NCBI RefSeq assembly: GCF_002999235.1
Contig: NZ_CP027236.1
Coordinates: forward strand, 2,604,001 to 2,668,000
DNA length: 64,000 nucleotides
Direction: 5' to 3'
DNA from: Actinomyces sp. oral taxon 897
Lineage (GTDB): Bacteria; Actinomycetota; Actinomycetes; Actinomycetales; Actinomycetaceae
Below the pieces are notes generated by a model, which searched no databases, was not told where the DNA came from, and saw only the letters and a list, made by a program, of their open reading frames with translations. Below are positions 33,597-56,439 of the stretch, piece by piece; the stretch's first letter is position 1; each line of letters begins with the position of its first letter. The position numbers and the translations under genes were made by a program.

Positions 33597-33676
33597 CCGT
33601 TCTCACGGCAAACAAGTACCGTTCTCGCGACGAACAAGTACCGTTCTCGCGAGCAATAAGTACCGTTCTCGCGGGG
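33597..33676 (+). repeat. 22-bp tandem repeat array A (3.6 units, forward)
   Basis: Three full units (33597, 33619, 33641) and a partial one, each CCGTTCTC-RCG, three variable bases, then AAYAAGTA. The period is exactly 22 bp. It lies between the permease stop and the MFS gene. This is the same repeat family as at 52476, 53086, 55883 and 56360. The remainder of 33319-33768 is GC-rich and shows no gene. Confidence 0.9.
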
Positions 33677-33768
33677 AGGACGGGGCGGGAGAGGGGCGTG
33701 AGGGCGCCCCGCGTGGCTTGCGGCAGGCGTACGCTGGTGCGGTTACCGACCGACACGCCGAGCCCGCC

Positions 33769-35076
33769 ATGCGCACCTTTGACTCCCTGAGAATCCGCAA
33801 CTACCGCATCTGGTTCTTCGCCGCCCTGGTGACCAACACCGGCACGTGGATGCAGCGCGTGGCCCAGGACTGGCTGGTCCTGCGCATCCTCACCGACGAC
33901 TCCGCCAGCGCCACCGGCATGACCACGGCGCTGCAGTTCCTGCCCGCCCTGCTGCTGTCCGCCCACGCCGGCCTGGTCGCCGACCGCCTGGACCAGCGCA
34001 GGCTGCTCATGGTGACCCAGGCCTTCATGGGGGTGGTCTCGGCGGTCCTGGCCGCCGACGTCCTCATGGGACGGGCCGCCCTGTGGCACGTCTACCTGGC
34101 GGCCTTCCTCACCGGGGTGGGCAGCGCCTACGACGCCCCCGCCCGCCAGATCTTCGTGGTCCGCATGGTCCCGACCGACCACCTGGCCAACGCGGTGGGG
34201 CTGAACTCCGCCTCCTTCAACGCCGCCCGGCTCCTGGGGCCCGCGGCCGCCGGGATGGTGACCGCCGCCGTCGGCCCCGGCCTGGTCTTCGCCGTCAACG
34301 CCGCCACCTTCCTGGCCCCGACGGCGGCCCTGGCGCTCATGCGCGTGGGGGAGCTCTACGAGGTGGCCCGCGCCCCGCGGGCCCACGGGCAGGTGCGCGA
34401 GGGCCTGAGCTACGTACGCCACCGCACGGACCTGCTGGTCATGATCGGGGTCATTACGGTGGTCTCAATGTTCACCCTCAACTACCAGGTGACCATGGCG
34501 GCCATGGTGCGCAGCGTCTTCGCCCTGGAGTCCGACGCCTACGGCACGGTCTCCTCGGTGTTCGCCGTCGGGAGCCTGGGCGGGGCCCTGTGGGCGGCCC
34601 GGCGCAGCCAGCCGCAGGTGCGCACGGTGGTGTGGGCGGCCCTCTTCCTGGGGGCCTCCACCCTCCTCATGGCCCTGGCCCCGGGCTACCTGCTGTTCAC
34701 CCTCGCCACCGTGCCGGTGGGGCTGTGCACCCTGACGCTGCTCACGGCTGCCAACCAGACCATCCAGCTCACCGCGGCGCCGCAGGTGCGCGGACGGGTG
34801 ATGAGCATCTACATGATGTGCCTCCTGGGGTCCACGCCGGTGGGCTCCCCGCTCATCGGGTGGGTCTCGGACACCTGGGGTCCGCGCGCCGCCCTCCTCC
34901 TCGGCGGTGTGGCAGCCGTTACCATTGCGGTGGTCGCGGGCACGTGGGCCCGACGCCGCGGGAGCGCCTCCCCGGCTCGTTATGCCCCAGACCCGTTCCC
35001 GACCGCCAGCGGACCCCGCGAGCGTGCCGCCCACGCCGAGGGAGACGACCTCGATCCGAAGGAGAACCGGCCGTGA
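33769..35076 (+). CDS. MFS exporter (EntS/MFS_3 type)
   Basis: 435-aa major-facilitator transporter with about 12 membrane helices. The N-terminus FDSLRIRNYRIWFFAALVTNTGTWMQRVAQDWLV and loop LVADRLDQRRLLMVTQ match the MFS_3 (enterobactin-exporter-like) group, which exports drugs or siderophores. ATG 33769 begins the family-like sequence; upstream codons contain no convincing ribosome site. It overlaps the DtxR-family regulator by 4 bp, so the two are coupled and the exporter may be linked to metal or siderophore homeostasis (inference). Confidence 0.88.
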   Translation: MRTFDSLRIRNYRIWFFAALVTNTGTWMQRVAQDWLVLRILTDDSASATGMTTALQFLPALLLSAHAGLVADRLDQRRLLMVTQAFMGVVSAVLAADVLMGRAALWHVYLAAFLTGVGSAYDAPARQIFVVRMVPTDHLANAVGLNSASFNAARLLGPAAAGMVTAAVGPGLVFAVNAATFLAPTAALALMRVGELYEVARAPRAHGQVREGLSYVRHRTDLLVMIGVITVVSMFTLNYQVTMAAMVRSVFALESDAYGTVSSVFAVGSLGGALWAARRSQPQVRTVVWAALFLGASTLLMALAPGYLLFTLATVPVGLCTLTLLTAANQTIQLTAAPQVRGRVMSIYMMCLLGSTPVGSPLIGWVSDTWGPRAALLLGGVAAVTIAVVAGTWARRRGSASPARYAPDPFPTASGPRERAAHAEGDDLDPKENRP

Positions 35077-35750
35077 GTGAACTCATTGACACCACCGAAA
35101 TGTACCTGAAGGCCGTCTACGAGCTGGAGGAGGACGGGATTACGCCGTTGCGCGCCCGCATAGTCGAGCGCCTGGACCACTCCGGTCCCACGGTCTCCCA
35201 GACGGTGTCCCGTATGGAGCGCGACGGCCTCATCCACGTCGCCGAGGACCGCTCCCTGAAGCTGACCTACGAGGGGCGGCGCCACGCCACGGAGGTGATT
35301 CGCAAGCACCGGCTTGCGGAAAGGGTGCTCCTGGACATTATCGGACTGGACCGCCGGCTCATCCACGACGAGGCCTGTCGCTGGGAGCACGTCATGAGCG
35401 AGAAGGTCGAGGACCACCTGTTCGCCCTCCTGGGGGAGATCGAGTCCGACCCCTTCGGCAACCCCGTGCCCCCGTCCGGGATCGTCTACCCGTCCCCGGC
35501 GCCCGACGAGATCTGCGCCGAGAGCCTGGCCGGCGATATCGACGAGGTCATTGACGCCGTCGTGGCCCGGGTGGGGGAGCCGGTCCAGGCCAGCCACCAG
35601 CTCCTGGTGGACATGGAGGACGCCGGCATCGTGCCGAAGGCGCAGGTGCAGGTGATGGCGGTCTACCGGGGGGTGCGCGTGGAGGGGCCCGGGGGCGACG
35701 CCGTCGTCCTGCCCCGTGACCTGGCACGACACCTGTTTTTGAGGCGATAA
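35073..35750 (+). CDS. DtxR/IdeR-family metal-dependent regulator
   Basis: 225-aa iron- or manganese-dependent repressor. N-terminal helix-turn-helix (MYLKAVYELEEDGITPLRARIVERLDHSGPTVSQTVSRMERDGL in blocks), a dimerisation and metal-binding domain with conserved HDEACRWEHVMSEKVEDHL, and a C-terminal SH3-like domain. Length and order match DtxR/IdeR. The start is GTG 35073, inside the MFS stop (GTGA) with AAGGAG 9 bp upstream. It probably controls metal-uptake genes elsewhere and perhaps its own operon. Confidence 0.9.
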   Translation: MSELIDTTEMYLKAVYELEEDGITPLRARIVERLDHSGPTVSQTVSRMERDGLIHVAEDRSLKLTYEGRRHATEVIRKHRLAERVLLDIIGLDRRLIHDEACRWEHVMSEKVEDHLFALLGEIESDPFGNPVPPSGIVYPSPAPDEICAESLAGDIDEVIDAVVARVGEPVQASHQLLVDMEDAGIVPKAQVQVMAVYRGVRVEGPGGDAVVLPRDLARHLFLRR

Positions 35751-35812
35751 TCACACAAGTCCTCGTGACCCTCGTCCCTGGCGACCTCGTACCGCCCGGC
35801 GCGCCGTGAGTC

Positions 35813-35832
35813 CTGTGTGTAATACCACAGGA
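35813..35832 (+). terminator. Small hairpin after the DtxR-family gene
   Basis: CCTGTG (35813-35818) and CACAGG (35827-35832) pair around an 8-nt loop, 60 bp after the regulator stop. It could be a weak terminator. Confidence 0.3.
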
Positions 35833-35954
35833 GGATGGAGGGGGTATTGAGGTGCACCGACCGGGGTCTGCTGGTTAGAGTAGCGAACGCAGTCGGTTTC
35901 CAGGCTGCGACGAGGGACGTGATGCCTAGTCCTGTCGGCACGTGTTCTCGTCAC

Positions 35955-36092
35955 CCTGACTCTTCAATCCGGCAGGTCCGGGGGACCCAACTTCCGGCCA
36001 GGTGGCCCACAAGGCTGCTTGGTCTTGGGGTGAAGCCCGCGACAGCGGGCCGAGCGTCTCCAGCTCGAACCCGACAGCTCACCTCGGCGGCT
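35955..36092 (+). promoter_or_regulatory. Cyclic di-AMP (ydaO/yuaA) riboswitch
   Basis: The leader of the NlpC/P60 gene carries the conserved core of the ydaO class: CCGGGGGACCCAAC (about 35977-35991), CTTGGGGTGAAGC (about 36023-36036), and the 3' block ACCCGACAGCTCACCTCGGC (about 36069-36088), which matches known family members closely. It ends just before the ribosome site AAGGAG. In actinobacteria this class binds c-di-AMP and usually lowers expression of cell-wall hydrolases. Boundaries are approximate. The rest of 35751-36106 shows no gene. Confidence 0.9.
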
Positions 36093-36106
36093 ACCAAGGA
36101 GAAACT

Positions 36107-36901
36107 ATGACGACTCGACCTGTGGCCCGCCACCGCAAGGCAAAGCGACCGATGGCGGCGCTTTCCGGGGTTGCTCCGACCGCACGCCGCGGTCTGAGCG
36201 TCGCCGCCGCCTCCGGCCTGGCCCTGACCGTCCTCGCCCAGGGCGCGGCCGTGGCCGCTGGCAGCACCGAGGTCGGTGAGTCAGCCGGCTCCCTCGGTGC
36301 GGGGGCGCTGACCACGGACGCCCGTGCGGCGGTCACCAACAACCCTGAGATCTCCGTCGCCTCTGACGCGACCTGGACCGCGGAGGGGGCCGCCCAGGCC
36401 ACCGCCGAGGCCCCTGCCCCTGCCCCCGCCCCCGCGGTCGAGGAGGCCGCCCCGGCGGCCGAGACGACGACTACCGCTGCCACCACCACGACCGAGGCCT
36501 CTGCCCCCACGACCACCCCGGCGGCGGCCGAGGAGGACACGACCCCTGCCCCCGCCCCCGCCCTGGCTGCCGGGAACTCCTCCGTGGCCGCCATCGCCAT
36601 GCAGTACGTGGGCGCCGCCTACGTCTACGGTGCTGGCGGCCCGGGTGCCTTCGACTGCTCCGGCCTGGTCCAGTACGTGTACTCCCAGATCGGCGTCAGC
36701 CTGCCCCACTCCTCCTCGGCGATCCGCGGCATGGGGACCCCGGTCTCGGCAGCCTCCGCCCAGCCCGGCGACGTCATGTGGTGGCCCGGTCACGTGGCCA
36801 TCTACGTGGGTGACGGCATGATGGTCTCCGCCGAGAGCGAGGGCGTGGGCGTGCGCTACATGCCCGTCCGCGGTGGCGCGACCTTCCTGCGGATGGTCTG
36901 A
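36107..36901 (+). CDS. Secreted NlpC/P60 peptidoglycan hydrolase
   Basis: 264-aa secreted endopeptidase that cleaves peptide stems of peptidoglycan. N-terminal basic region and signal segment (RGLSVAAASGLALTVLAQGAAVAAG), then about 110 residues of Ala/Pro/Thr/Glu linker, then an NlpC/P60 domain of about 105 residues with the catalytic Cys in FDCSGLVQYVYSQIG (about C184), His in GHVAIYVG (about H229) and SLPHSS. AAGGAG lies 6 bp before ATG 36107. Expression should respond to c-di-AMP through the leader riboswitch. Confidence 0.93.
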   Translation: MTTRPVARHRKAKRPMAALSGVAPTARRGLSVAAASGLALTVLAQGAAVAAGSTEVGESAGSLGAGALTTDARAAVTNNPEISVASDATWTAEGAAQATAEAPAPAPAPAVEEAAPAAETTTTAATTTTEASAPTTTPAAAEEDTTPAPAPALAAGNSSVAAIAMQYVGAAYVYGAGGPGAFDCSGLVQYVYSQIGVSLPHSSSAIRGMGTPVSAASAQPGDVMWWPGHVAIYVGDGMMVSAESEGVGVRYMPVRGGATFLRMV

Positions 36902-36954
36902 CCTGCGGCTTTAGATCCTGCGGGCTCCAGCTCGACAACTGCTTTCGCTGAGAG

Positions 36955-36987
36955 GGAGGGCACTCGTCCAGGCGGTGGGTGCCCTCC
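36955..36987 (+). terminator. Hairpin terminator after the NlpC/P60 gene
   Basis: GGAGGGCAC (36955-36963) and GTGCCCTCC (36979-36987) form a perfect 9-bp stem with a 15-nt loop, 53 bp after the stop codon. Confidence 0.6.
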
Positions 36988-36997
36988 TCCGTGTCTG

Positions 36998-37003
36998 TAT
37001 AGT
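36998..37003 (+). promoter_or_regulatory. -10 element of the universal stress protein gene
   Basis: TATAGT in an AT-richer stretch (TGTATAGTGTTTTG) between the preceding terminator and the usp gene; it gives a leader of about 65 nt. No clear -35 match is seen. Confidence 0.4.
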
Positions 37004-37074
37004 GTTTTGCACCACAGGCGAACGCGGGGTCCTGGCCCGCACCGCCCCACGCTCACAGAAAGGGGCACGAAACT

Positions 37075-38010
37075 ATGACAGACGACAAGGTGGTCCTCGT
37101 CGGGGTTGACGGGTCACCGGAGTCCTTCGGGGCCGTGGACTGGGCCGTGGCCCGGGCCGCACTCAAGGGGTGGCGGGTCCACCTCCTATGCGCCTACTCC
37201 CTGCCCTCGTTCACCACGGCCTCCCTGGACGGCGGCTACGCCGTCCTGGACGACACCGCCATCCGCTCCGGCGCCCAGGCGGTGCTCGACGAGGCCGTGG
37301 CCCGGGCCCGGGACAAGGACGTGCGGGTGACCAGCTCCCTGGAGACCGGGGACCCGGCCGGGGTCCTGGTGGACCTGTCCAAGCAGTCCGTCCTGACCGT
37401 CGTGGGCACCCGAGGCGGCGGGGGCTTCGCCGACCGGCTGCTGGGCACCGTCTCCTCCGCCCTGCCCGCCCACTCCCACTGCCCCACCGTGGTGGTGCCC
37501 CGGCACACCGAGGGGGCTGAGTTCACCCCGGTACGACGCATTGTGGTGGGCGTGGACGGCTCCTCCTCCGCCCGCAAGGCCCTGGCCTGGGCCGTGGAGG
37601 AGGCAGAGGCCTGGGACGCCGAGGCCACCGCCATCGCCGCCGTCCCCATGGCCACCGGGGCGGGGGTGCTGGCCTGGCTGCCAGCCACCGTGGACCGCGA
37701 GCAGGTCCTGGCCGACGTGCGCAGCGGCCTGGACCGGGCGATCGCCGAGGCCCTGGACGGCCACCCCGGGGTCACCGTGCGGCGCCACGCCCTGGACGGC
37801 AACGCCGCCGAGCTCCTGGCGGAGTTCTCCACCGCCGTGGACCTGGTGGTGGTGGGCTCACGCGGGCGGGGCGGGTTCTCCGGCCTCCTGCTGGGCTCCA
37901 CCAGCCAGGGTGTCCTGTCTCACGCCTCCTGCCCGGTGCTGGTCGTTCCCGACCGTTCCAAGGGTGAGGAGCGGGCACGGCGCACGTCCACGCCGTGGGG
38001 GCGCGCCTGA
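37075..38010 (+). CDS. Tandem-domain universal stress protein
   Basis: 311-aa cytosolic protein with two UspA domains (about residues 1-145 and 155-300). Each has the ATP-binding pattern G-2x-G-9x-G-S/T (GTRGGGGFADRLLGTVSS and GSRGRGGFSGLLLGSTSQ) and starts VVLVGVDGSPES or IVVGVDGSSSA. Such proteins help survival under starvation or hypoxia. AGAAAGG precedes ATG. Likely monocistronic, with tRNA-Arg downstream. Confidence 0.93.
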   Translation: MTDDKVVLVGVDGSPESFGAVDWAVARAALKGWRVHLLCAYSLPSFTTASLDGGYAVLDDTAIRSGAQAVLDEAVARARDKDVRVTSSLETGDPAGVLVDLSKQSVLTVVGTRGGGGFADRLLGTVSSALPAHSHCPTVVVPRHTEGAEFTPVRRIVVGVDGSSSARKALAWAVEEAEAWDAEATAIAAVPMATGAGVLAWLPATVDREQVLADVRSGLDRAIAEALDGHPGVTVRRHALDGNAAELLAEFSTAVDLVVVGSRGRGGFSGLLLGSTSQGVLSHASCPVLVVPDRSKGEERARRTSTPWGRA

Positions 38011-38055
38011 GTGGGAACGGGGCCCAGGCCCTGCTAGGCTGGGCCCCACAGCACA

Positions 38056-38128
38056 GCCCTCGTAGCTCAGGGGATAGAGCACCGCTCTCCTAAAGCGGGT
38101 GTCGGACGTTCGAATCGTCTCGGGGGCA
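38056..38128 (+). tRNA. tRNA-Arg (anticodon CCT)
   Basis: A 73-nt cloverleaf: acceptor GCCCTCG pairs with CGGGGGC (one G-U), discriminator A at 38128, D-loop AGCTCAGGGGATAGAGC, anticodon loop CTCCTAA, T-loop GTTCGAATC. CCA is not encoded. It reads AGG codons. Confidence 0.93.
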
Positions 38129-38215
38129 CGACGCCAGCGGGGCTCCCGGGGTCCGCAAGGATCTCGGGCCCCATAGGCCTCGCGTAGAAGTGATCCACCT
38201 GGCACAATGAGGCCC

Positions 38216-38953
38216 ATGGCATACACCCTCGTGCTGCTCCGCCACGGCGAGAGCGACTGGAACGCAAAGAACCTCTTTACCGGCTGGGTCGACGTCCCCC
38301 TGTCCGACAAGGGCTGCGCAGAGGCCGTCCACGGCGGCGAGCTGCTCAAGGAGGCAGGAGTCCTGCCCGAGAAGCTCTTCACCTCGATGCTGCGCCGGGC
38401 CATTATGACCGCCAACCTCTCCCTGGACGCCGCCGACCGGCACTGGATCCCGGTCGAGCGCAGCTGGCGCCTCAACGAGCGCCACTACGGGGCGCTCCAG
38501 GGCAAGAACAAGAAGGAGATCCGTGAGGAGTACGGGGAGAAGCAGTTCATGCTCTGGCGCCGCTCCTACGACGTACCGCCGCCGGCCATCGAGCTGGGCA
38601 GCGAGTTCTCCCAGGACACCGACCCCCGCTACGCCGGGGAGCCCATCCCCGTCACCGAGTGCCTCAAGGACGTCCTGGAGCGCCTCCTGCCCTACTGGGA
38701 GGGCACCATCGTCCCGGCCATCAGGACCGGCCAGGTCATTATGATCGCCGCGCACGGCAACTCCCTGCGCGCCATCGTCAAGCACCTGGACGACATCTCC
38801 GACGCCGACATCGCCGGCGTCAACATCCCCACCGGCATCCCGCTGGTCTACGAGCTCGACGAGGAGACCCTCAAGCCGCTCGAGAAGGGCGGGCGCTACC
38901 TGGACCCTGAGGCCGAGGCCAAGATCGCCGCGGTGGCCAACCAGGGCAAGTGA
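38216..38953 (+). CDS. gpmA: 2,3-bisphosphoglycerate-dependent phosphoglycerate mutase
   Basis: 245-aa glycolytic enzyme interconverting 3- and 2-phosphoglycerate. Phospho-histidine motif LRHGESDWN near the N-terminus, substrate residues [20 protein letters not shown], and second His in [14 protein letters not shown]. Length is normal for the family. ATG 38216 ([11 protein letters not shown]) fits the family start better than ATG 38207; GAGG lies directly between. CACAAT at 38203-38208 may be a -10 element. It lies in the same neighbourhood as eno, the next glycolytic step. Confidence 0.95.
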
Positions 38954-40557
<1,604 letters not shown>

Positions 40558-40564
40558 GGCGGTC

Positions 40565-40596
40565 CGTCCTCCAGGGGCCTGCGCCCCTGGAGGACG
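40565..40596 (+). terminator. Terminator of eno
   Basis: Perfect 14-bp stem (CGTCCTCCAGGGGC, 40565-40578, with its complement at 40583-40596) and a 4-nt loop, 7 bp after the eno stop. Confidence 0.8.
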
Positions 40597-40703
40597 CGGG
40601 TAGGGCCGCCCACCTTGGTGGTGCGGCCGTTGCCCTCCCGGAATGCGCCCCTGGGCGCGGGTAGGGCCACCAGCCGGGGCCTGCGCCTTAGGCTGGCCCT
40701 CCA

Positions 40704-40739
40704 CCGGTGGGGCCGGGGCACGTGCCCCGGCCCCACCGG
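40704..40739. repeat. Perfect 36-bp palindrome
   Basis: Left half CCGGTGGGGCCGGGGCAC (40704-40721) is followed immediately by its exact reverse complement (40722-40739). As RNA it would fold to a 16-bp stem with a 4-nt loop. It lies 147 bp after the eno stop, beyond the first terminator. The rest of 40558-41042 holds two copies of CGCGGGTAGGGCC (near 40596 and 40657) but no gene. Confidence 0.85.
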
Positions 40740-41042
40740 CGTCAGCTCCGGGCGCCGGGAGCGGAGCCGGTGCGAGGAACCGGGCGCAGGGTTGGCGCAG
40801 GGAGGGAGCCAGCGGCCCCACCGGCCCCGCAGACGCACGGGCGGGCTTGAGGCTCGACCGTGCGAACCGCACTCTCCGCGGGCGGCCCACGCCGGTAGCG
40901 GCCCCACCGGCGGTGCCGGGGCCTGGTGTCGGTCACCACCGGGCCCGCCCACGGCACGCCACCGGCCCCCATGTAGACTTACCCCTGGCAGGCCTGGTCA
41001 GGTACCGTGCGCCGCATGCCCGAGCCCCAGGAGGTCCCCGCC

Positions 41043-41981: not shown

Positions 41982-42020
41982 CCCGCCTTCCACCCCCACC
42001 ACCGAGTGTTAAGGAAACCG

Positions 42021-42641
42021 ATGAAGCGTCTTGTGATATCCCCGCACATGGATGACGAGTCCATGGGCTGCGGCGGCCTCCTGGCCAAGTACGGCCCGGA
42101 GTGCCTGGTCCTCAATGTGGCGGGCTCGGGCCAGGTGCGTGAACGTGAGCACGCCGCCGCCATGGAGATCCTGGGCGTGACCAACGTGCGTAACCTGGAC
42201 TACCCCGACGGCTACGTCCACGACCACATGGCGCGGCTGGTGGCCGACGTCGACGCCGTCATGGCCGAGCACCACCCCGAGGAGGTCTACCTTCCCTACC
42301 CCTCCCTGCACCAGGACCACATCGCCGCCTACGAGGCCGGGATGCGCTCCTGCCGCATGTCCATGAGCCACCTGCACTGGTACCCGCCCATGGTCTACGT
42401 CTACGACGTCGCCGTCTACGACCTCTCCCTCTACCCCACCGACCTGCGCTGGAACGTGTTCGAGGAGCTCACCGCCGCCCAGGCCGAGGCCAAGGAGCGG
42501 GCCTGCCAGTGCTACGTCTCCGAGACCCCGGAGGGCCCCCACCCCCTGACCTCCATTAAGCAGATCGCCGCCGCGGTGGGCCGCACCCACCAGATGGACT
42601 ACGCCGAGCAGTACGCCCTCGTCAGGGAGATCCGCCGATGA
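42021..42641 (+). CDS. PIG-L (LmbE)-family deacetylase
   Basis: 206-aa zinc-dependent N-deacetylase of the PIG-L/LmbE family, acting on N-acetyl sugars in glycan or cofactor precursors. Metal-binding motif SPHMDDESMGCGG near the N-terminus and the second-His region YPSLHQDHIAAYEAG are present. ATG 42021 is preceded by AAGGAAACCG. It overlaps the WbqC-like gene by 4 bp. With the GT2 gene it suggests modification of an amino sugar in a surface glycan. Confidence 0.88.
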   Translation: MKRLVISPHMDDESMGCGGLLAKYGPECLVLNVAGSGQVREREHAAAMEILGVTNVRNLDYPDGYVHDHMARLVADVDAVMAEHHPEEVYLPYPSLHQDHIAAYEAGMRSCRMSMSHLHWYPPMVYVYDVAVYDLSLYPTDLRWNVFEELTAAQAEAKERACQCYVSETPEGPHPLTSIKQIAAAVGRTHQMDYAEQYALVREIRR

Positions 42642-43285: not shown

Positions 43286-43288
43286 TGG

Positions 43289-46257: not shown

Positions 46258-46336
46258 TACTGTCGGACTGTCTGGCGGGTACGAGGGACGCCGCGGCCTG
46301 CCGTACACCCGCACCGCGGAACCACCGGAGGACACC

Positions 46337-47290: not shown

Positions 47291-47306
47291 GGAGTCCAGG
47301 AAGACC

Positions 47307-48620: not shown

Positions 48621-49513
48621 CTACGCTGACGAGCCAGGGGCCCGCGACGCGAGGCGTCCCCGTCGGTGTGCGCACGCACCTGGCCCACGCCGCGCTCCAG
48701 GTGATCGCCCAGGAGGCCCGTGTCCAGGTCCTCCACGTCAAGGGCCCCGCGGTCGACCCCAGCCTGGGGCGCCCCCTGCGCTCGGCCACCGACGCCGACG
48801 TCGTCGTCCGGCCCACGCAGGTGGCCCGCTACGTGGAGGCCCTGGCGGACCACGGCTGGGAGCACGTCACCAGCTTCGCCACCGGCTCGGTCTTTGAGCA
48901 CGCCGCGACCTTCTACCACCCCTCCTGGGGCTACGCCGACGTCCACCGGGTCTTCCCGGGCATGACCGCCACCCAGGCCTTCGCCGTGCTGTGGGCGAAC
49001 CGGCGCCTGCAGGCGGTCGCCGGCCTGCCCTGCCCGGTCCCCTCCCTGACCGCCCAGCGCCTCCTGCTGCTCCTGCACGTGGCCCGCAACGGGTCCGGGA
49101 GCCTCGACCCGGACTACGAGCGCGCCTGGGTGCGGGCCGACGCCGCCGAGCGCGCCCGTATCCGGCGGCTCGCCGTGTCCGTGGGGGCCCAGGTGGGGCT
49201 GGCCGCCGCCCTGGGCGAGCTCGACCGCTACGCCGCCGACCCCGCGCACGACCTCTGGTTCGTCCTGGCCCACGGGGGCACCTCCCGCCTGGAGGAGTGG
49301 CGTGCCCGCTTCCGCGCCGCCCCGGGGCCGGCCGCCAAGACCAGGGTCGTGGCCCGCTCCCTGCTGGTCAACACCGACCACCTGGCCATGCGCCTGGGCA
49401 GGCGCCCCTCGCACGGGGAGGTGGCCGCCGAGTTCGCCGGGCGCCTGACCCGGGCCGTCGGTGAGGTCCGCACCTTCCTGCACCGTACCGACCACGAGAG
49501 GAGGCAGACATGA
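48617..49513 (+). CDS. Nucleotidyltransferase-fold protein (NTP_transf_5 type)
   Basis: 298-aa protein resembling nucleotidyltransferase-family proteins of the PF14907 kind: HVKGPAVDPSLGRPLRSATDADVVVRP contains, in blocks, the KG turn and the R...DxD metal site, followed by VEALADHGWEHV and HVARNGSG. These proteins cluster with PqqD proteins and HprK-like kinases in exopolysaccharide or peptide-modification loci. ATG 48617 overlaps the aroD stop. Its substrate is unknown. A 4-bp overlap with the PqqD gene follows. Confidence 0.75.
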   Translation: MTTLTSQGPATRGVPVGVRTHLAHAALQVIAQEARVQVLHVKGPAVDPSLGRPLRSATDADVVVRPTQVARYVEALADHGWEHVTSFATGSVFEHAATFYHPSWGYADVHRVFPGMTATQAFAVLWANRRLQAVAGLPCPVPSLTAQRLLLLLHVARNGSGSLDPDYERAWVRADAAERARIRRLAVSVGAQVGLAAALGELDRYAADPAHDLWFVLAHGGTSRLEEWRARFRAAPGPAAKTRVVARSLLVNTDHLAMRLGRRPSHGEVAAEFAGRLTRAVGEVRTFLHRTDHERRQT

Positions 49514-49788
49514 GCTACCGGCTCCCCGAGCGCCTGGCCTGGGTGGACGACGCCTCCGGCGGTGAGGACGCGAACGTCTACCTTGCCCACGTACCTGACG
49601 GCCAGCCCCTGGTCCTGAGCGGCTCCGCCCGCTCCATCTGGCTGGTCGCCCAGGAGTCCCGGGACGCCCAGGAGGTGGCCGCCGTGCTGGCCGACGCCGT
49701 GGGCCTCCCGGCCTCGCGCATCGCCCCCGAGGTGAGCGCCTTCCTGGACGAGCTGGTCACCGACGGCCTGCTGGAGGAGGTCCCGTGA
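49510..49788 (+). CDS. PqqD-family peptide-chaperone-like protein
   Basis: 92-aa PqqD-type winged-helix protein (PLVLSGSARSIWLVAQ, EVSAFLDELVTDGLLEEVP). In peptide-modifying systems PqqD domains bind a precursor peptide; in polysaccharide-linked systems their partner is not known. No precursor peptide gene is recognisable nearby. It is coupled by overlap at both ends (ATGA at the start, GTGA at the end). A second PqqD domain is fused to the kinase at 54722-55843. Confidence 0.8.
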   Translation: MSYRLPERLAWVDDASGGEDANVYLAHVPDGQPLVLSGSARSIWLVAQESRDAQEVAAVLADAVGLPASRIAPEVSAFLDELVTDGLLEEVP

Positions 49789-50519
49789 GCGCGACCTCCG
49801 GGCGGCGCGCCTCCCGCGGACACGCCCGCCGTGAGCGGCTCGACATCCACGCCGGTGGCGGCGTCTTCGGGGACACGGCGCCCAGCAGCCGGGGCAACCG
49901 GCCCCGGCGCCTCCTGCGCCACCTGGTCCCCACGGGCGGCTCCGCCCCCCGGCGCCACGGTGGGGCACCCCGGGTGCTCATGGTGTGCACCGCCAACATC
50001 TCCCGCAGCCCCTACGCCGAGATGCGGCTGCGCCAGCTGCTGGGCTCCGGTGAGACCTGGGCGGTCACCAGCGCCGGGGTCCCCGGCCTGGTGGACCAGC
50101 CCATGGAGCCCGCCATGTCCGCCCAGGCCCGCGAGCGGGGGGTGAGCCCCGAGGAGGTCGCCGCCCACCGCTCCCAGCCCGTGGACCAGCGGATCCTGGA
50201 CCGCAGCGCGCTCATTATCTGCATGGCGGTCGAGCACCGGCGCCGGCTCGTGGAGGACTACCCCGAGGTCACCGGCCGCTGCTTCACCCTGGGGCAGCTG
50301 GTGGAGGCCGTCCAGGGCCTGGAGCCGCCCGGCGGCGGGCGACGGGCCCGCAGGATATCGGCCTCCGTCCTGGTGTCCGCCCTGGGGGCGCGGTGCCCCG
50401 CGCCCGACGAGTCCGCCGACGTGCCCGACCCCTTCCGACGGGGGACGGAGTTCGCCGCCGGGGTCGCCCAGCGCATTGACGCGGACTTGATCACGCTTGT
50501 CCCGTTCCTCCTGCGGTAG
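49785..50519 (+). CDS. Low-molecular-weight protein-tyrosine phosphatase
   Basis: 244-aa phosphatase with the LMW-PTP P-loop VCTANISRSPYAEMRL (nucleophile about C68, Arg about R74) and a C-terminal DVPDPF acid motif. A roughly 60-residue Arg/Gly-rich N-terminus precedes the domain, and a loop near residues 180-205 is longer than usual. It should dephosphorylate the tyrosine kinase encoded 85 bp downstream, the usual Wzb/Wzc type pairing that controls polysaccharide chain length or export. GTG 49785 overlaps the PqqD stop. Confidence 0.9.
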   Translation: MSATSGRRASRGHARRERLDIHAGGGVFGDTAPSSRGNRPRRLLRHLVPTGGSAPRRHGGAPRVLMVCTANISRSPYAEMRLRQLLGSGETWAVTSAGVPGLVDQPMEPAMSAQARERGVSPEEVAAHRSQPVDQRILDRSALIICMAVEHRRRLVEDYPEVTGRCFTLGQLVEAVQGLEPPGGGRRARRISASVLVSALGARCPAPDESADVPDPFRRGTEFAAGVAQRIDADLITLVPFLLR

Positions 50520-50604
50520 GGGCCACGGCGTTGGTAGCGTGACCTCGGGTAGGCCGTCACGGGTCCCCCGGCCCCAGTGCAGACCAGGAAGGGAAGCTGC
50601 CCTC

Positions 50605-52446
50605 GTGACCATTCAGGACTTTCTGCGGTTGATGAAGGTCAACGCGGTCTTTATTATCTGCTGCGTCGTCGTAGGGGGGCTCCTGGGCTTCGGGTACGCC
50701 AAGACCCAGCCCAAGCTCTACCAGAGCTCCGCGCAGGCCACGATCGTCATCGCCGGCACGGACGCCTGGAGCGCCAACTCCGTGGCCCAGCAGAAGGCGG
50801 GCGTGTTCGCCAAGCTCGCCGGCTCGGCGGCCGTGGCCCAGTCCGTGTCCCAGTCCCTGGGTCTGCAGGATCTCGGCGGCTCCCTCACCGGCGCGGCCGA
50901 GCCGTCCTCCCCGATCGTCACCATTACGGCGGTCTCCTCGGACCCGAGCCGGGCACGGGACCTGGCCAACGCCGCCATCCCCGCCCTGGGCAGCTACATC
51001 GCCTCCCTGGAGGCCATTGGCTCCGGGCAGAGCCCGTCGCCTGCTGACGCCCAGCCCCCAGCAGCCGGCTCCGACCAGCCCTCCACGCCGTCCCCCGCTG
51101 ACGAGCAGCCTGCCGCCCCTGAGCCCGCCACCCCCGAGCCCAGGCAGGAGGAGCCCAGGGGCGGTAACCAGGACGAGGGCGCGAACCCGGGCACCGGTGA
51201 GAGGCGCTCCACCCCCGGCCGCGGTAACGGCACCGGTGAGGAGAAGGAGGACGCAGCCGCCGACGCCCAGGCGCGCGTCGTGCCCGCCGTGGCCGGTACC
51301 GGGGCGAGCCTCGTGCCCGCCGTGGCCGGCGCGCCGCAGGCCGCCGTCGGGCAGGCCGGTGTTGGGCAGGCCGGGCAGGCCGCTCCCGCGGCTCCCGCCA
51401 CCGCCGCCCCGACCGACGAGACCTACAACAGCCAGACCCGCCTGGTCGCCCTGGAGCCCGCCCAGCTGCCCGGGGCCCCCTTCTCCCCCGACACCACCAA
51501 GCTCGCCGGCATGGGGGGCGCTGGCGGGCTGGCCCTGGGACTCGCCGTCGCCTTCCTGCGCCGTGCCCTGGACAACAAGATCCGCCACAACTCCGACATT
51601 GAGGACATCCTCCAGTCCTCGGTCCTGGCCGTGGTGCCCCGCTCCACCGACCTGAGCGCCAAGGGGCGCAGGAACGTGGACGGCCTGGGCCAGGCCGCCG
51701 AGGCCATCCGCCTGCTGCGCACCAACCTGCGCTTCGTGGACGTGGACAACCCGCCGCGCGCCATTGTCATGACCTCCGCCAACCCCGGGGAGGGCAAGTC
51801 CACCATCTCGGCGGTCCTGGCGCAGATGCTCGCCGCCTCCGGGCAGCGCACCATCCTGGTGGACACCGACCTGCGCAAGCCCGTGGTCCACCGCATCTTC
51901 GACATTGACGGCTCAGTGGGCCTGACCCAGGTCCTGGCCGGGGACGTGCCCGTGTCCGACGTCGCCCAGTTCGTCAAGGGCCACCCCCACCTCAGGGTCA
52001 TCCCCGCCGGGCGGATCCCGCCCAACCCCTCCGAGCTCCTGGGCTCCCAGCGCATGAAGGCCCTGCTGGACAGGCTCTCCCAGGAGGCGGTCGTGCTCCT
52101 GGACGCCCCCCCGCTCCTGCCGGTGACCGACGCCGCGCTCCTGTCGGCCCTGGCCGACGGCGCCATCCTCACCTTCGAGGTCGGGGGCACCTACAAGGAG
52201 CAGGCGCGCCTGACGGGCAAGATCCTGGGGCAGGTTGACGCCCGGCTGCTGGGGGTGGTGCTCAACCGCGCCTCGCGCCGGTCCATGGGCTCGGTCTACT
52301 ACGGCTACGGCTACGGCAGTTACGGGCACCACTACTACTACGGCGAGCGGCCACGGGGCTGGCGCCGTCTGCTGCCGGGAGGCCGTCGGCACACACGCCA
52401 CCAGGAGCCCGCCGAGACCCAGGAGCACGTCCCAGCCGCCTCCTGA
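50605..52446 (+). CDS. Bacterial tyrosine kinase with Wzz-type chain-length domain
   Basis: 613-aa BY-kinase, presumably controlling capsule or exopolysaccharide. N-terminal Wzz domain with membrane helix 1 (AVFIICCVVVGGLLGFGYA), an extracytoplasmic part containing a roughly 130-residue Pro/Ala/Gly/Glu-rich insert, helix 2 (LAGMGGAGGLALGLAVAFL), then a cytoplasmic kinase with Walker A ANPGEGKST (about residue 393 on), Walker A' LVDTDLRKP and Walker B VVLLDAPP. The tail carries a tyrosine cluster (SVYYGYGYGSYGHHYYYG), the usual autophosphorylation site. GTG 50605 has GGAAGGG upstream. Genes for repeat-unit synthesis are not in the window. Confidence 0.93.
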   Translation: MTIQDFLRLMKVNAVFIICCVVVGGLLGFGYAKTQPKLYQSSAQATIVIAGTDAWSANSVAQQKAGVFAKLAGSAAVAQSVSQSLGLQDLGGSLTGAAEPSSPIVTITAVSSDPSRARDLANAAIPALGSYIASLEAIGSGQSPSPADAQPPAAGSDQPSTPSPADEQPAAPEPATPEPRQEEPRGGNQDEGANPGTGERRSTPGRGNGTGEEKEDAAADAQARVVPAVAGTGASLVPAVAGAPQAAVGQAGVGQAGQAAPAAPATAAPTDETYNSQTRLVALEPAQLPGAPFSPDTTKLAGMGGAGGLALGLAVAFLRRALDNKIRHNSDIEDILQSSVLAVVPRSTDLSAKGRRNVDGLGQAAEAIRLLRTNLRFVDVDNPPRAIVMTSANPGEGKSTISAVLAQMLAASGQRTILVDTDLRKPVVHRIFDIDGSVGLTQVLAGDVPVSDVAQFVKGHPHLRVIPAGRIPPNPSELLGSQRMKALLDRLSQEAVVLLDAPPLLPVTDAALLSALADGAILTFEVGGTYKEQARLTGKILGQVDARLLGVVLNRASRRSMGSVYYGYGYGSYGHHYYYGERPRGWRRLLPGGRRHTRHQEPAETQEHVPAAS

Positions 52447-52475
52447 CCGCCCCCGGCCCTCCTGCCCGGCCGCCT

Positions 52476-52574
52476 CGCGAGAACGGTACTTGTTCGTCGT
52501 GAGAACGGTACTTGTTTGTCGCGAGAACGGTACTTGTTTGCCGTGAGAACGGTACTTATTGCTCGTGAGAACGG
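52476..52574 (-). repeat. 22-bp tandem repeat array B (4 units plus partial, reverse)
   Basis: Units start at 52487, 52509, 52531 and 52553, preceded by a partial unit. Each reads TACTT, two to five variable bases in the middle, then CGYGAGAACGG: the reverse complement of the array A unit. It lies 30 bp after the tyrosine-kinase stop. Confidence 0.9.
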
Positions 52575-52690
52575 GGGCGTGGCCGGGTGGCCGGTTCACA
52601 TGGCGGCATGAGGTCCTGGGCTGGCCCTGCCCGGGGGCCGGGCCCACTATCCGTTCGGGTGGGTCACGGCCCCACTATCCGCTCAGATGC

Positions 52691-52990
52691 TGGCATGCCG
52701 GGGAGCACGCCACCGCGGGCAACCACCCCGACACCCCGCCCCTCGGGCCTTGGTACGCCGGGGGAGCGCCGTGACCAGTCCTCAAAGACCCGTTGAGCGG
52801 CTCCGAGGTCCTGGCGTGGCGGGGAGCACCCCGTGGCGTCACCCGTCCTGCGAGCTCTCCGTAGCCGGAGCCCTGGTGTGGCGGGGAGCACCCGCCGCCT
52901 GGGAGCCCCGAGACAATGTCCCGTCCGGAGCCATGCGGTAGGGAGCGCCTCTCTCGTCCTGGGCCCTCAGGCTGGGGGGCGCGCAGGACC
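52691..52990. repeat. Degenerate repeat of about 60 bp, five copies
   Basis: A motif like TGGYRTGSCGGGGAGCRC recurs at 52691, 52751, 52812, 52874 and (weakest) 52933, spacing 59-62 bp, each preceded by a CGGAGCC- or CGAGGTCC-like block. It fills the space between inverted 22-bp arrays B and C. No open frame runs through consistently. In the rest of 52447-53251 I see only the arrays and GC-rich filler. Confidence 0.55.
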
Positions 52991-53085
52991 AGAGCGGCAG
53001 CGACCGAGACCACTTTAGGAGACCACGTAGGTAGCGCACCCCGGCTTCCTGTGCCGGAGGACGCCGTCGCCCTGAAGCAGGCCTC

Positions 53086-53231
53086 CCGTTCTCACGACGA
53101 ACAAGTACCGTTCTCACGGGCAACAAGTACCGTTCTCACGGGCAACAAGTACCGTTCTCACGGGCAACAAGTACCGTTCTCGCGGGCAACAAGTACCGTT
53201 CTCGCGGCGAATAAGTACCGTTCTCGCGGGA
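53086..53231 (+). repeat. 22-bp tandem repeat array C (6 units plus partial, forward)
   Basis: Units start at 53086, 53108, 53130, 53152, 53174 and 53196, with a 14-bp partial at 53218. Units 2-4 are identical. The array ends 20 bp before the LCP stop codon, so any LCP message ends in or near it. Inverted relative to array B, 511 bp away. Confidence 0.95.
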
Positions 53232-53251
53232 GGCGGGGGCAGGGCGGGCGG

Positions 53252-54583
53252 TCAGTTCACCACCCCTCCCAGCACATTGAGCTTGTCGGGATGCTCGGCC
53301 ACGTACTGGCTGATCGAGTCCGTCTGGAAGGCCCGGGACACCTCGGCCAGGGTGACGGCGTCGAGCAGCACGATCGACTGCCCGTCAGCACTGGTGGAGA
53401 TGCCCTGGACGGGGGCCTGGAAGAAGTTCACGTTGCTGCTGCGTATCCCGGTCATGGAGCTGGCCAGGTCGATCATGGCCGAGGTGGTCAGGGCGTCGTC
53501 CACGGCCACCGTCTTGGTCACCGTCTCAATGAGGCCAGCCAGCTTCACGGGGTCCGTGAGAGTCCCGCCGTCGACCGCGGCCTTGAGGATGGAGCGCATC
53601 CAGTTCTGCTGGCGCTTAATACGGCCGAAGTCCCCGTCCGGCAGGGTGTAGCGCTCCCGGGCGTAGACGAGGGCCTGCTCGCCGGTGAGCCTGTGGGCCC
53701 CGGGGGCCAGGACGTTGTCCGAGCTCGCGGCGTCCTGCCTGCCGGTGAGGTCCAGGGGCTGGGTCAGGGTGATATCGACCCCGCCCAGCTCGTCGGTCAG
53801 GGCCTTGAAGGACTCAAAATTCGCAATGGCGAAATGGTCAATATGGATCCCGGTGACGTTCTCCACCGTCCGGATCAGCAGCGTGGGGCCTCCCCAGGAG
53901 TAGGCGGCGTTGATCTTGGCCCGCGAGTCGTGGTCCACGACGTCGTTGGCCGGGATCGTCACCCAGGAGTCGCGCGGGATGGACATAACGTTGACCCTCT
54001 TCCGGTCCCCGCTGATCTGCATGACCATAATCGTGTCGGTGCGCTGGGCACCCACCTCCCACTGGGAGGGATCCTTGGAGTCGATCCGGGAGTCCGAGCC
54101 CAGGACCAGGAAGGTGACGGGCTGGCCGGCCGCGCCGGTGGCGTAGGGAGGGCGGCTCCCCAGGCCCGCGAAGGGGTCGCCCAGGTGCTCGATGCCGCCC
54201 AGGAGGCTGCGGATGAACAGGACCAGCCCGATCCCGGTCCCCGCAATGAGCGCCAGGAGCACCAGCAGCACCGTGGCCGCCTTGTGCCGGACCACCCAGG
54301 GGCGGCGCCTGTGGTGGTGGTGCCTGGCCGAGATCTCCTTGCGCTGGGGCGGGGGGCCCTCGAACAGGGGGGCGGAGTGCTCCAGGCGGTCCATGAACAG
54401 CTCGTTGGAGGCGTCGTCCAGGGGCACCTCGGCGGTTCGCCGGGTCCTCCGATCGGCTCTGCGAGGGTGACGATCGGAGGAAGGCCGGTCGGCGGAGGCG
54501 GGACTGCCGTGTGGGCCCTCGCCGGAGGGGCCGTGGTCCGAAGGACGGACGTGAGAGGGACGATCGGAGGATGAGTCAGACAC
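53252..54583 (-). CDS. LytR-CpsA-Psr (LCP) family cell-wall glycopolymer ligase
   Basis: 443-aa LCP protein that should transfer a lipid-linked glycopolymer to peptidoglycan outside the membrane. Parts: a roughly 95-residue Ser/Pro/Arg/His-rich cytoplasmic N-terminus, membrane helix (AATVLLVLLALIAGTGIGLVL), then the LCP domain with FLVLGSDSR, QRTDTIMVMQIS (Asp), VNVMSIPRDSWV (conserved Arg-Asp), KINAAYSWGGP, LGGVDITL, and LVYARERY/DFGRIKRQQ. GTG 54583 has GAGAGG 6 bp upstream. Convergent with the tyrosine-kinase gene and divergent from the HprK-PqqD gene; probably the ligase for the polymer they control. Confidence 0.93.
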   Translation of the reverse strand: MSDSSSDRPSHVRPSDHGPSGEGPHGSPASADRPSSDRHPRRADRRTRRTAEVPLDDASNELFMDRLEHSAPLFEGPPPQRKEISARHHHHRRRPWVVRHKAATVLLVLLALIAGTGIGLVLFIRSLLGGIEHLGDPFAGLGSRPPYATGAAGQPVTFLVLGSDSRIDSKDPSQWEVGAQRTDTIMVMQISGDRKRVNVMSIPRDSWVTIPANDVVDHDSRAKINAAYSWGGPTLLIRTVENVTGIHIDHFAIANFESFKALTDELGGVDITLTQPLDLTGRQDAASSDNVLAPGAHRLTGEQALVYARERYTLPDGDFGRIKRQQNWMRSILKAAVDGGTLTDPVKLAGLIETVTKTVAVDDALTTSAMIDLASSMTGIRSSNVNFFQAPVQGISTSADGQSIVLLDAVTLAEVSRAFQTDSISQYVAEHPDKLNVLGGVVN

Positions 54584-54679
54584 GGATGACCTCTCGAAGG
54601 GCTTGTTGCGGCGGACGATGACGCTGGGCCGACGGTGGCCCGGGAGACAGGCCGCAGCGCGGCGGCCTACGCGTCACGC

Positions 54680-54685
54680 TATCAT
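54680..54685 (+). promoter_or_regulatory. -10 element before the HprK-PqqD gene
   Basis: TATCAT in a locally AT-rich stretch; it would give a leader of about 30 nt containing the ribosome site AGGGAG. This supports GTG 54722 as the start. Confidence 0.4.
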
Positions 54686-54721
54686 CACCGTGTTCGCACC
54701 CCCGACCCTGAGGGAGCTCTT

Positions 54722-55843
54722 GTGCTTCTCACACTCATGGGGCAGACCGTTGACCTAGACCTCTCCCAGCTCCCGCTGCCGGTCGCCCAGAGGCTTGAGG
54801 ACGCGTGGCTGCCCTGCGCCACGACGGCGTCGGACAGGGACCCTGCCCCCGCCCCGTTCTCAGTCACGGTCCTGCCGCCCTCGGCTGCAGCCAGCGCCCG
54901 GCCCCACGACCTGGTCCTGCACACCCTGGAGAGGGACGTGACCTACTGCGTCTCCCAGCACCTGACCCGGTGGCTCATTAGCAAGGCGGCTGGTGACTAC
55001 CTCATGCTCCACGCCGCGGGCCTGCGCGCCCCCGACGGGCGCGTGGTGGGCGTCATCGCGCCCTCGGGGACAGGTAAGACCACCTTCTGCTCGGTCCTGG
55101 GGAACCGGTTCGGCTACGTGACCGACGAGACCCTCGTCATTACCCCGGGGACCCTGGACGTCATCCCCTACCCCAAGCCCCTGTCCGTCGTCGGACCCGA
55201 GGCGAGGCGCACCAAGGTGGACCACTCCCCGTCGGCCCTCGGCCTGGAGGCCGTCACCTCGCCCACGCCCCTGGGCGCCCTGGTCCTGGCCGAGCGGGTC
55301 AGGAGCGGCAACACCCTGGTGCCCATGAGGCTGGAGGAGATCATGGAGCCGGTCATCGCCCAGACCTCCTCCCTGTTCGCCCTGCCCTCCCCCCTCCTGA
55401 CCCTGGCCCAGGCCCTGACCCTGGCGGGCGGGCCCTGGCGTCTGAACTTCTCCAGCCAGGAGGAGTGTGCCTCCCTCCTGGCTGGCCTGCCCGCCTGTGA
55501 GGCGGCGCCTGCCTCCTTCACCCACGTGCCGGGGGCCGGTGACGCCCACACCGCGCTCAGCGGCCAGGACTGCGGCCCGCTCGCGGAGGGGGACCGTTTT
55601 GTGCGCACCACCTGGACCGACGCCGTGGTCACCGAGGACGCCGTGGTGCTCCTCTACGGGCGGCTGCCCGTGACGCTGGGGGGCGCGGGTGCCGTCATCT
55701 GGCTCGCCTGCCAGGAGCCGACGGGCATGGAGGTGATCCACCGCGCCGTCGTGGAGCGGCTGGGGGGCCACCCGCGTGCCCGGCTGCTGGTGGAGGAGGC
55801 TCTCATATCGCTCATTGTCGGCGGCGTCATCCGCCTGTGCTGA
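54722..55843 (+). CDS. HprK-like kinase fused to a PqqD domain
   Basis: 373-aa protein. Residues about 85-300 resemble HPr-kinase-related proteins: YLMLHAAGLRAPDGRVVGVI, P-loop APSGTGKTTF (K about 119), VTDETLVITP and VIPYPKPLSV. The last 85 residues look like a PqqD domain (FVRTTWTDAVVTEDAVVLLYG, then GGAGAVIWLACQEP, then EEALISLIVGGVIRL), comparable with the free PqqD at 49510. HprK-type kinases with PqqD partners are known in exopolysaccharide-linked systems; fusion in one chain is less usual. GTG 54722 has AGGGAG 5 bp upstream; an in-frame GTG at 54692 is possible. Confidence 0.75.
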   Translation: MLLTLMGQTVDLDLSQLPLPVAQRLEDAWLPCATTASDRDPAPAPFSVTVLPPSAAASARPHDLVLHTLERDVTYCVSQHLTRWLISKAAGDYLMLHAAGLRAPDGRVVGVIAPSGTGKTTFCSVLGNRFGYVTDETLVITPGTLDVIPYPKPLSVVGPEARRTKVDHSPSALGLEAVTSPTPLGALVLAERVRSGNTLVPMRLEEIMEPVIAQTSSLFALPSPLLTLAQALTLAGGPWRLNFSSQEECASLLAGLPACEAAPASFTHVPGAGDAHTALSGQDCGPLAEGDRFVRTTWTDAVVTEDAVVLLYGRLPVTLGGAGAVIWLACQEPTGMEVIHRAVVERLGGHPRARLLVEEALISLIVGGVIRLC

Positions 55844-55846
55844 GGT

Positions 55847-55879
55847 GGGGCGGGCCCGGCCGACCGCGGCGCCCGCCCC
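55847..55879 (+). terminator. Terminator after the HprK-PqqD gene
   Basis: GGGGCGGGC (55847-55855) pairs perfectly with GCCCGCCCC (55871-55879) around a 15-nt loop, 4 bp after the stop. Repeat array D starts immediately afterwards. Confidence 0.65.
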
Positions 55880-55882
55880 TCT

Positions 55883-56026
55883 CCGCGAGAACGGTACTTA
55901 TTGCTCGTGAGAACGGTACTTGTTTCCCGTGAAACCGGTACTTGTTCGTCGCGAGAACGGTACTTGTTTCCCGTGAAACCGGTACTTGTTTGTCGTGAGA
56001 ACGGTACTTATTGCTCGTGAGAACGG
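55883..56026 (-). repeat. 22-bp tandem repeat array D (6 units plus partial, reverse)
   Basis: Units start at 55895, 55917, 55939, 55961, 55983 and 56005, after a partial unit. Two variants occur: GAGAACGG ends and GAAACCGG ends (units 2 and 4, identical to each other). Units 1 and 6 are identical as well, suggesting a higher-order duplication. Same family as arrays A, B, C and E. Confidence 0.95.
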
Positions 56027-56161
56027 GGTGCTCACAGCAGGCTCCCAGGAATGTCCCGGCCTACGCGGACGCCCGGCTCTTCGGACCCGCTCCCGGTTCT
56101 CCACACCACTGCACCGGCCGTCCCACAAGCCTCACCACCCGCCCGGGACCTGCCCCGGTCA

Positions 56162-56223
56162 CCGGAGACGTACCCTAGATGCCCTTCCAGGGTACGTTCT
56201 CGGCACACGGGGCACGTCTCCGG
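56162..56223 (+). other. Possible structured RNA or switch: two mutually exclusive stems
   Basis: CCGGAGACGT (56162-56171) pairs with ACGTCTCCGG (56214-56223). ACGTACCCT (56168-56176) pairs with AGGGTACGT (56189-56197). The stems share bases 56168-56171 and cannot both form fully. The element lies between inverted arrays D and E; no gene is seen in 56027-56359. Confidence 0.4.
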
Positions 56224-56359
56224 CGAACGCAGTCAGATCCCGACGCGAACCAGGTAGGGCAGGCGTCAGAGCTGGCCGGGAGGTTGTGGCCGGGAGGTTG
56301 CTGGCCCCGCGCGTCTGCGTCGGTCAGGACACAGGTGCGGCAGGTGCACCGGCGCACCC

Positions 56360-56439
56360 CCGTTCTCACGACGAACAAGTACCGTTCTCACGACGAACAA
56401 GTACCGTTCTCACGACGAACAAGTACCGTTCTCGCGGAA
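56360..56439 (+). repeat. 22-bp tandem repeat array E (3 units plus partial, forward)
   Basis: Units start at 56360, 56382 and 56404 (all identical), with a partial at 56426. Inverted relative to array D, 333 bp away, which repeats the B/C arrangement. Confidence 0.93.

Follow-up and report, generated by a model that had tools for sequence, protein, structure and literature searches.

A family of short direct-repeat arrays with clade-specific units at gene ends in the genus Actinomyces

REP elements occur in many intergenic copies and in inverted pairs with loops, their sequence being species-specific, and iterons are direct repeats of about 20 bp. The STAR elements of staphylococci are described in PMC3532100 as 14-bp GC-rich repeats kept at least 40 bp apart. 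According to PMC3630211, the DNA uptake sequences (DUS) of the Neisseriaceae exist as dialects, form inverted pairs tied to terminators and are common inside genes, too. The present analysis concerns a stretch of 64,000 nucleotides from the chromosome of Actinomyces sp. oral taxon 897 (contig NZ_CP027236.1, positions 2,604,001 to 2,668,000; hereafter, the window), in which a sequence-only reading had pointed out five intergenic arrays of a 22-bp direct repeat. These arrays belong to one family of gene-end elements, whose typical layout is a stop codon, a C-rich stretch and then between one and seven direct repeats, each 22 or 23 bp long, plus a half-unit, with a fixed polarity. No account of such repeats in Actinomyces was retrieved from the open-licence full-text literature searched, and the family is apparently undescribed so far.

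Arrays at gene ends in the genome of oral taxon 897

By the convention adopted here, the sense is the strand carrying GAGAACGG. Read in this direction, each array of the window consists of CGCGAGAACGG followed by n copies of TACTTRTT-NNN-CGYGAGAACGG; array 4 includes two variants of the unit. Across the complete genome of 3,249,416 bases, 397 units were counted at up to two mismatches, divided 206 to 191 between the strands, and a reversed control pattern gave none; the confinement of all five arrays to 23 kb was thus an effect of looking at the window. In a sample of 464 kb, made up of 20 stretches of 20 kb and the window, 23 arrays with 71 units were counted, i.e., roughly one array per 20 kb, and the GC content of the arrays is 0.52 vs. 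0.713 in the sampled genome.

The position of the arrays relative to genes was assessed with a rough GC-frame gene finder, the scan for arrays at gene ends being performed at the 22-bp spacing only. In oral taxon 897, 17 of the 23 arrays start, in the sense orientation, within 130 bp past the stop codon of a gene on the same strand, whereas random intergenic placement gave a mean of 2.8 and a maximum of 9 (500 runs). The corresponding figures in other species are 34 out of 51 arrays against a random mean of 6.1 and a maximum of 16. The antisense version of the same test returned two arrays here and 14 in the other species, these 14 including facing pairs. A larger sample from genome G035, partly overlapping the set of 80 arrays considered below, placed 19 of 31 arrays, in sense, within 130 bp of a stop and, with the same gene finder, one of the 31 in a called gene.

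Among those 80 arrays, 39 are located between convergent genes, 34 between codirectional ones (22 sense and 12 antisense) and seven between divergent ones, while none lies inside a gene. Counted by spacer, arrays are present in oral taxon 897 in 7/45 convergent, 11/182 codirectional and 1/48 divergent spacers, and in the other species in 27/125, 22/419 and 7/125, respectively, in a set that includes neighborhoods picked for topA and purH. The median convergent spacer in oral taxon 897 measures 715 bp with arrays (n = 7) vs. 131 bp without (n = 38). The tract between stop and array is rich in C both here (C 0.53 and G 0.29, n = 13, vs. 0.39 and 0.375 at other gene ends, n = 210) and in the other species (C 0.475 and G 0.23, n = 30, vs. 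0.394 and 0.349, n = 307). Palindromes of unrelated sequence were also seen at gene ends, with GCGTCACTTGGCGGAATGGAC arms after purH in G023 (L211) and CTGGGAACGTGCCTGCGCTC arms after topA in G036 (L253), which suggests further families of gene-end repeats.

Convergent genes often carry inverted, i.e., facing, array pairs. The nine pairs compared in oral taxon 897 enclose from about 0.27 to 1.6 kb, and six of the nine interiors are without a called gene, while the remaining three contain one. A sequence common to these interiors was looked for and discarded, since the nine share only matches of 15–24 bp.

Within the window, the five intergenic arrays were borne out, with starts at 33597, 52476, 53086, 55884 and 56360. 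They hold 22 units at up to three mismatches, vs. none in 100 dinucleotide-preserving shuffles, and the 22-bp period is exact, with 3, 4, 6, 6 and 3 full units, respectively; each array also carries one truncated half-unit of 11 bp. Their layout is as follows.

Array 1: 33597..33673, minus strand, 3 units and a half-unit (CCGTTCTC on the plus strand; sense GAGAACGG on the minus strand)
Array 2: 52476..52574, plus strand, half-unit CGCGAGAACGG and 4 units
Interior of arrays 2 and 3: 52575..53085, 511 bp, non-coding
Array 3: 53086..53228, minus strand, 6 units and a half-unit, inverted partner of array 2
Array 4: 55884..56026, plus strand, half-unit and 6 units, 2 of them the variant TACTTGTTTCCCGTGAAACCGG (CCGGTTTCACGGGAAACAAGTA)
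Interior of arrays 4 and 5: 56027..56359, 333 bp, non-coding
Array 5: 56360..56436, minus strand, 3 identical units and a half-unit, inverted partner of array 4

Array 1 is solitary; its neighbors, a permease gene and a gene for an MFS transporter, are both on the plus strand, and the array is antisense to each of them. Arrays 2 and 3 form a facing pair in a convergent spacer: the former starts about 30 bp past the end of a plus-strand gene (50497-52446, Wzz/CpsD-like on weak Pfam matches), and about 24 bp separate the latter from the stop end of a minus-strand LytR-CpsA-Psr gene (53252-54583). A second facing pair, arrays 4 and 5, lies between the plus-strand gene 54635-55843, which has no Pfam match and ends about 41 bp before array 4, and rplY (56655; ribosomal protein L25), upstream of which array 5 lies. 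The two variant units of array 4 (55917-55938 and 55961-55982) hold a GAAACCGG core, as in the dialects of other species. In the interior of arrays 2 and 3 (52690-52940), a degenerate motif resembling TGGYGTGGCGGGGAGCACC, read by eye and spaced by about 61 bp, may be a decayed CRISPR-like array. Elsewhere in the window, a cyclic di-AMP riboswitch (RF00379, 63.4 bits) was found at 35943-36107, where an NlpC/P60 gene region begins.

The internal structure of the units departs in part from what had been read from the window. The mini-dyad CCGT-TCTC-ACGG is not conserved, its 4-bp form being present in 21 and its 3-bp form in 57 of 94 exact-pattern units from the sampled stretches. Recent amplification, proposed from the identical units, does not hold as a general rule, since adjacent units are identical in 6/56 cases (0.11) vs. 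0.06 for random pairs; runs of identical units do exist in arrays 3 and 5. In 30 of 38 arrays, CGCGAGAACGG is the half-unit that precedes the first unit, and CGTG occurs in the last unit of 24 of the 29 arrays that have two or more units. Since neighboring units resemble each other little more than randomly paired ones do and variants track the position in the array, the arrays seem to be copied from locus to locus and not duplicated locally. Overall, of the sequence-only reading, a family of direct repeats that is dispersed and, apparently, undescribed is supported, whereas the clustering, the conserved dyad and tandem amplification as a general process are not; in the searches made, the unit neither corresponded to a known element nor was evenly spread at chance frequency.

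Carriers, dialects and shared addresses in the genus

Tandem-repeat finding disclosed other units of the same architecture in relatives, and the members of the family share the core YGARRNCGG joined to a clade-specific half, with a period of 22 or 23 bp; the 23-bp period of some other species excludes 22 bp as a universal period and, with it, strict helical phasing. At the 22-bp spacing, the core gave from 16 to 676 matches in 20 of the 49 genus genomes and at most seven in the rest (reversed control, at most five). At the 23-bp spacing, a slightly wider core gave from 33 to 353 matches in nine of the 49, among which are G016 and G019, and at most four in the rest (control, at most three). Two of these nine genomes are absent from the former list, so that 22 of the 49 genomes carry the family, a carrier being defined by at least 16 matches at the 22-bp spacing or at least 33 at the 23-bp spacing; the next-highest genome has seven. 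G028 and G033 lie below this threshold with a few genuine-looking units. From 396 genomes evenly drawn from the order (seven Actinomyces and 389 of other genera), the 389 gave at most five matches, i.e., the control level, at the 22-bp spacing, the only one searched there.

The unit, read in sense, is TACTTRTTNNNCGYGAGAACGG in oral taxon 897, CGAGACCGGTCGAAAATAGGAG in G032 and G035 (similar in G004), CGAGACCGGGCGAACAGCACGG in G067, CGAGATCGGTCCGGTTCCGCGT with variants in G061 (similar in G059 and G027), CGAAACCGGCGGAAACGACACG in G015 and CGAGACCGGGACATATGTACCG in G013, while 23-bp units with TTACGTGC or TTACGTAC occur in G014, G063 and G066. In single-gene trees of purH and topA, several branches of which are weak, these dialects broadly follow the clades, and the sampled non-carriers G001, G003, G007, G023 and G034 fall into one clade. 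The 25 best relatives of rplY among named genomes are all Actinomyces (60–80% identity). Arrays lie about 300–400 bp upstream of this gene, like array 5, in A. massiliensis (L110:9602-9699) and A. gerencseriae (L119:9563-9641), in different dialects and, in the latter, in the opposite orientation; in A. oris, four 20-kb rplY loci showed no array by the 22-bp core pattern.

Two addresses, topA and purH, were compared across species because oral taxon 897 has arrays there. Family units occur right past the stop codon of topA in 13 of 21 carriers and in none of seven non-carriers, each in the dialect of its own species; 11 of the 13 have arrays or facing units and two have one unit. A script flagged six arrays and six single cores among them, and G005 (core CGAGTTCGG) was called by eye. 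In 20-kb neighborhoods of ten species, arrays are found at 8/11 topA gene ends. The other groups of gene ends in these neighborhoods are occupied in at most two species each (1/10, 1/9 twice, 1/5, 1/3 and 1/2), and two groups (2/3 and 2/2) are occupied within a single clade, that of G032, G035 and G067.

Among these three genomes, addresses are shared well above expectation. G032 and G035 have nine gene ends occupied in both, seven in one and 101 in neither, with 1.3 expected in both; the counts are 8, 3 and 54 (1.4 expected) for G032 and G067, and 7, 4 and 49 (1.35 expected) for G035 and G067, some spacers being counted twice in these comparisons, once for each gene end. The G067 dialect differs at all of the nine gene ends that are also occupied in G032 and/or G035; these nine correspond to seven spacers, since they include two pairs representing the two sides of one spacer. 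There, the full G067 units are of the CGGGCGA type and those of G032 and G035 of the CGGTCGA type, one G067 unit (CGAGACCGGGCGAAAACAGGAG) being intermediate, and the three genomes hardly differ in the downstream flank of one address. The occurrence of different dialects at the same places in related species seems to imply that one sequence is copied to many sites, and we read this pattern as inherited sites evolving in concert. Favored sites hit by independent insertions are a less likely explanation, as most of the addresses examined differ between distant species.

Possible role and competing explanations

The anatomy of the family is firm, and the mechanism set out here is what we infer. 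The reading that we favor, tentatively, is that the arrays are binding or 3'-end elements marking the ends of transcription units and kept uniform by copying; the polarity, the place behind stop codons, the C-rich tract and the guarded convergent spacers argue for such a role. Each unit would be bound by a putative factor with sequence specificity, in all likelihood a protein that binds DNA; binding of protein to the units is plausible. Factors docked in a row behind a gene might help to end or insulate transcription as a roadblock or pause, perhaps assisted by Rho loaded on the C-rich tract. Where genes converge, facing arrays would guard both strands. A process of copying or conversion at existing sites would keep the arrays uniform, so that factor and dialect would change together in each clade.

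In G035, where palindromes are formed by two facing arrays, six of the seven tight pairs with an 8-bp loop have identical 31-bp arms, vs. 5.7% of random pairs, and their sequences differ from pair to pair; identical arms fit selection for a hairpin but also the correction of quasi-palindromes, so that they do not decide on function. One of these tight palindromes folds at z -11.6, and the sense-strand folds of four of the five window arrays range from z -0.3 to -3.4, with only array 4 beyond -2. In G067 (loci L345 and L348), palindromes with a common asymmetric loop (GCGGTTTTCCACAGATCGGAATCTC) were observed in three spacers. An apparent depletion of hairpins at array ends in raw energy turned out, in the composition-corrected test, to be a GC effect, and thus gives no evidence that the arrays replace intrinsic terminators; the corrected test does not help the case for an end-marking role. 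A scan for hairpins followed by T-runs gave two hits in 50400-57300, of which one falls within array 2 (shuffle mean 1.4), and one in 31800-35200 (shuffle mean 0.9), away from array 1. The possibility that the arrays are rows of mini-terminators, with a CCGU-GAGA-ACGG hairpin followed by a T-rich half, of which the scan of 50400-57300 gave one example, was dropped, as 37 of 94 units lack the closing pair and other species show no T-richness in the other half.

Several observations weigh against an end-marking role at inherited sites. Sharing of addresses between distant species is limited: the array after purH is present only in oral taxon 897 (1/25 readable loci) and that at gatD in 3/23, with G012 left out as a partial match. 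Moreover, 27 of the 49 genomes fall under the carrier threshold, 12 of the 34 codirectional arrays are antisense, arrays 1 and 5 of the window included, and, after correction for composition, hairpins are no scarcer at array ends than at gene ends elsewhere (z ≤ -3 in 4/17 and 12/47 vs. 17/185 and 73/437). Both the binding factor and the role at RNA ends are putative.

A strong rival, which we regard as possible though doubtful, is a selfish element tolerated at gene ends, i.e., a non-autonomous mobile repeat, REPIN- or MITE-like, that some enzyme copies to new sites and over old ones. Such an element would fit the hundreds of matches in some genomes and the chance level in others, the inverted pairs with loops (including the common asymmetric loop in G067), the fact that adjacent units are little closer to each other than unrelated ones, which points to copying between loci, and the differences in most addresses among distant species. 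In G015 (L010:1321-1533), a single unit of the oral taxon 897 dialect, together with a half-unit, is found next to the duplicated 3' end of a gene (87% over 92 bp), called coaA-like from reading of the sequence, and this lone unit is consistent with acquisition by horizontal transfer. On the other hand, no Y1 transposase (RAYT or IS200 type; PF01797) was found in any of the 49 genus genomes, five of 14 controls being positive and other types of transposase not having been searched. No match was obtained in viral contigs for the dialect of this genome or for one other dialect, nor in plasmid and phage collections for array 3 (BLAST with low-complexity filter), so that carriage by a phage or plasmid was rejected for the collections searched. 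The sharing of addresses by related species (e.g., eight vs. 1.4 expected) and of topA across clades, as well as the polarity relative to the upstream gene, also speak against a merely tolerated repeat.

A further proposal, which we consider rather unlikely, would combine a machine that overwrites gene-end arrays with the current dialect, i.e., a "homing repeat" or molecular drive acting at more than 100 fixed addresses, with a fast-changing factor that reads the end mark. It is improbable that the arrays are sites of chromosome structure, bound by a nucleoid protein or a protein handling supercoils behind transcription units, for which gyrase and BIMEs in E. coli offer a precedent: convergent regions, where supercoils meet, are preferred and topA is the best-shared address among those examined, but clade-specific units would be odd for a conserved enzyme and the binding is putative; the strand totals of the units are balanced (206 and 191). 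Self-recognition tags for DNA exchange, finally, are very unlikely, since the dialects around a common core, the apparently transferred array in G015 and the inverted pairs at gene ends, as in the DUS of PMC3630211, are set against 0/80 arrays in genes, where the same source finds DUS to be common, and against tandem arrays rather than single sites, at a density of roughly one per 20 kb (23 in 464 kb).

That a short non-coding repeat is replaced in concert at many distinct addresses shared between bacterial species, although no REP-type transposase was found, is unexpected. Related species with different dialects represent natural experiments, and the pattern points to a missing factor at actinobacterial gene ends.

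Comparison with known systems

Rfam returned no match at the arrays for the whole window at gathering scores and only two sub-threshold microRNA matches for 52300-56700 at E up to 1. CRISPR was rejected, since the units of the arrays are contiguous and without spacers, and a real CRISPR array lies elsewhere: a CRISPR-like array of more than 10 kb with a 61-bp period and the repeat GGATCATCCCCGCGCGTGCGGGGTTTAC, which we take to be type I-E-like, extends to near the end of stretch L086 (L086:9118-19764; G000:C1:3069118-3079764).

The arrays resemble iterons and parS in being direct repeats of about 20 bp, and the two variant units of array 4 contain GTTTCACGGGAAAC, which matches parS in 13 of 14 bases. 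They differ in that the units number in the hundreds and are spread chromosome-wide, while a parS-type cluster is located elsewhere, with eight perfect GTTTCACGTGAAAC sites within 7.3 kb (G000:C1:2337531-2344793; 2.3375-2.3448 Mb), presumably marking the origin region. A parS array was rejected, GTTTCACGGGAAAC being present only in those two variant units, and the analogy with iterons or ParB/DnaA arrays drawn from the window is not supported, as the copies are chromosome-wide and mostly at gene ends and the parS-type sites cluster apart.

As to STAR elements, in both cases dispersed intergenic direct repeats without assigned function occupy different loci in each species (PMC3532100); the Actinomyces units are contiguous, 22 or 23 bp long, polar with respect to gene ends and themselves clade-specific, whereas STAR repeats are of 14 bp and spaced. 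With DUS the family shares the dialects and the inverted pairs at gene ends, but DUS, according to PMC3630211, are common inside genes, while the Actinomyces arrays are tandem and lie outside them (0/80).

The likeness to REP, BIME and REPIN elements lies in more than 100 intergenic copies, inverted pairs with loops and a species-specific sequence, and the high-copy extragenic state typical of REP is found here, too (397 units, 0/80 arrays in genes). The arrays differ in being direct repeats of 22/23 bp without a conserved dyad (the REP-like palindromic unit is lacking, with a 4-bp dyad in 21/94 units), and REP sequences driven by a RAYT are rejected by the lack of a Y1 transposase in the 49 genomes. 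The family thus works like REP and BIME elements and resembles STAR elements and DUS dialects, yet fails a tested defining feature of each.

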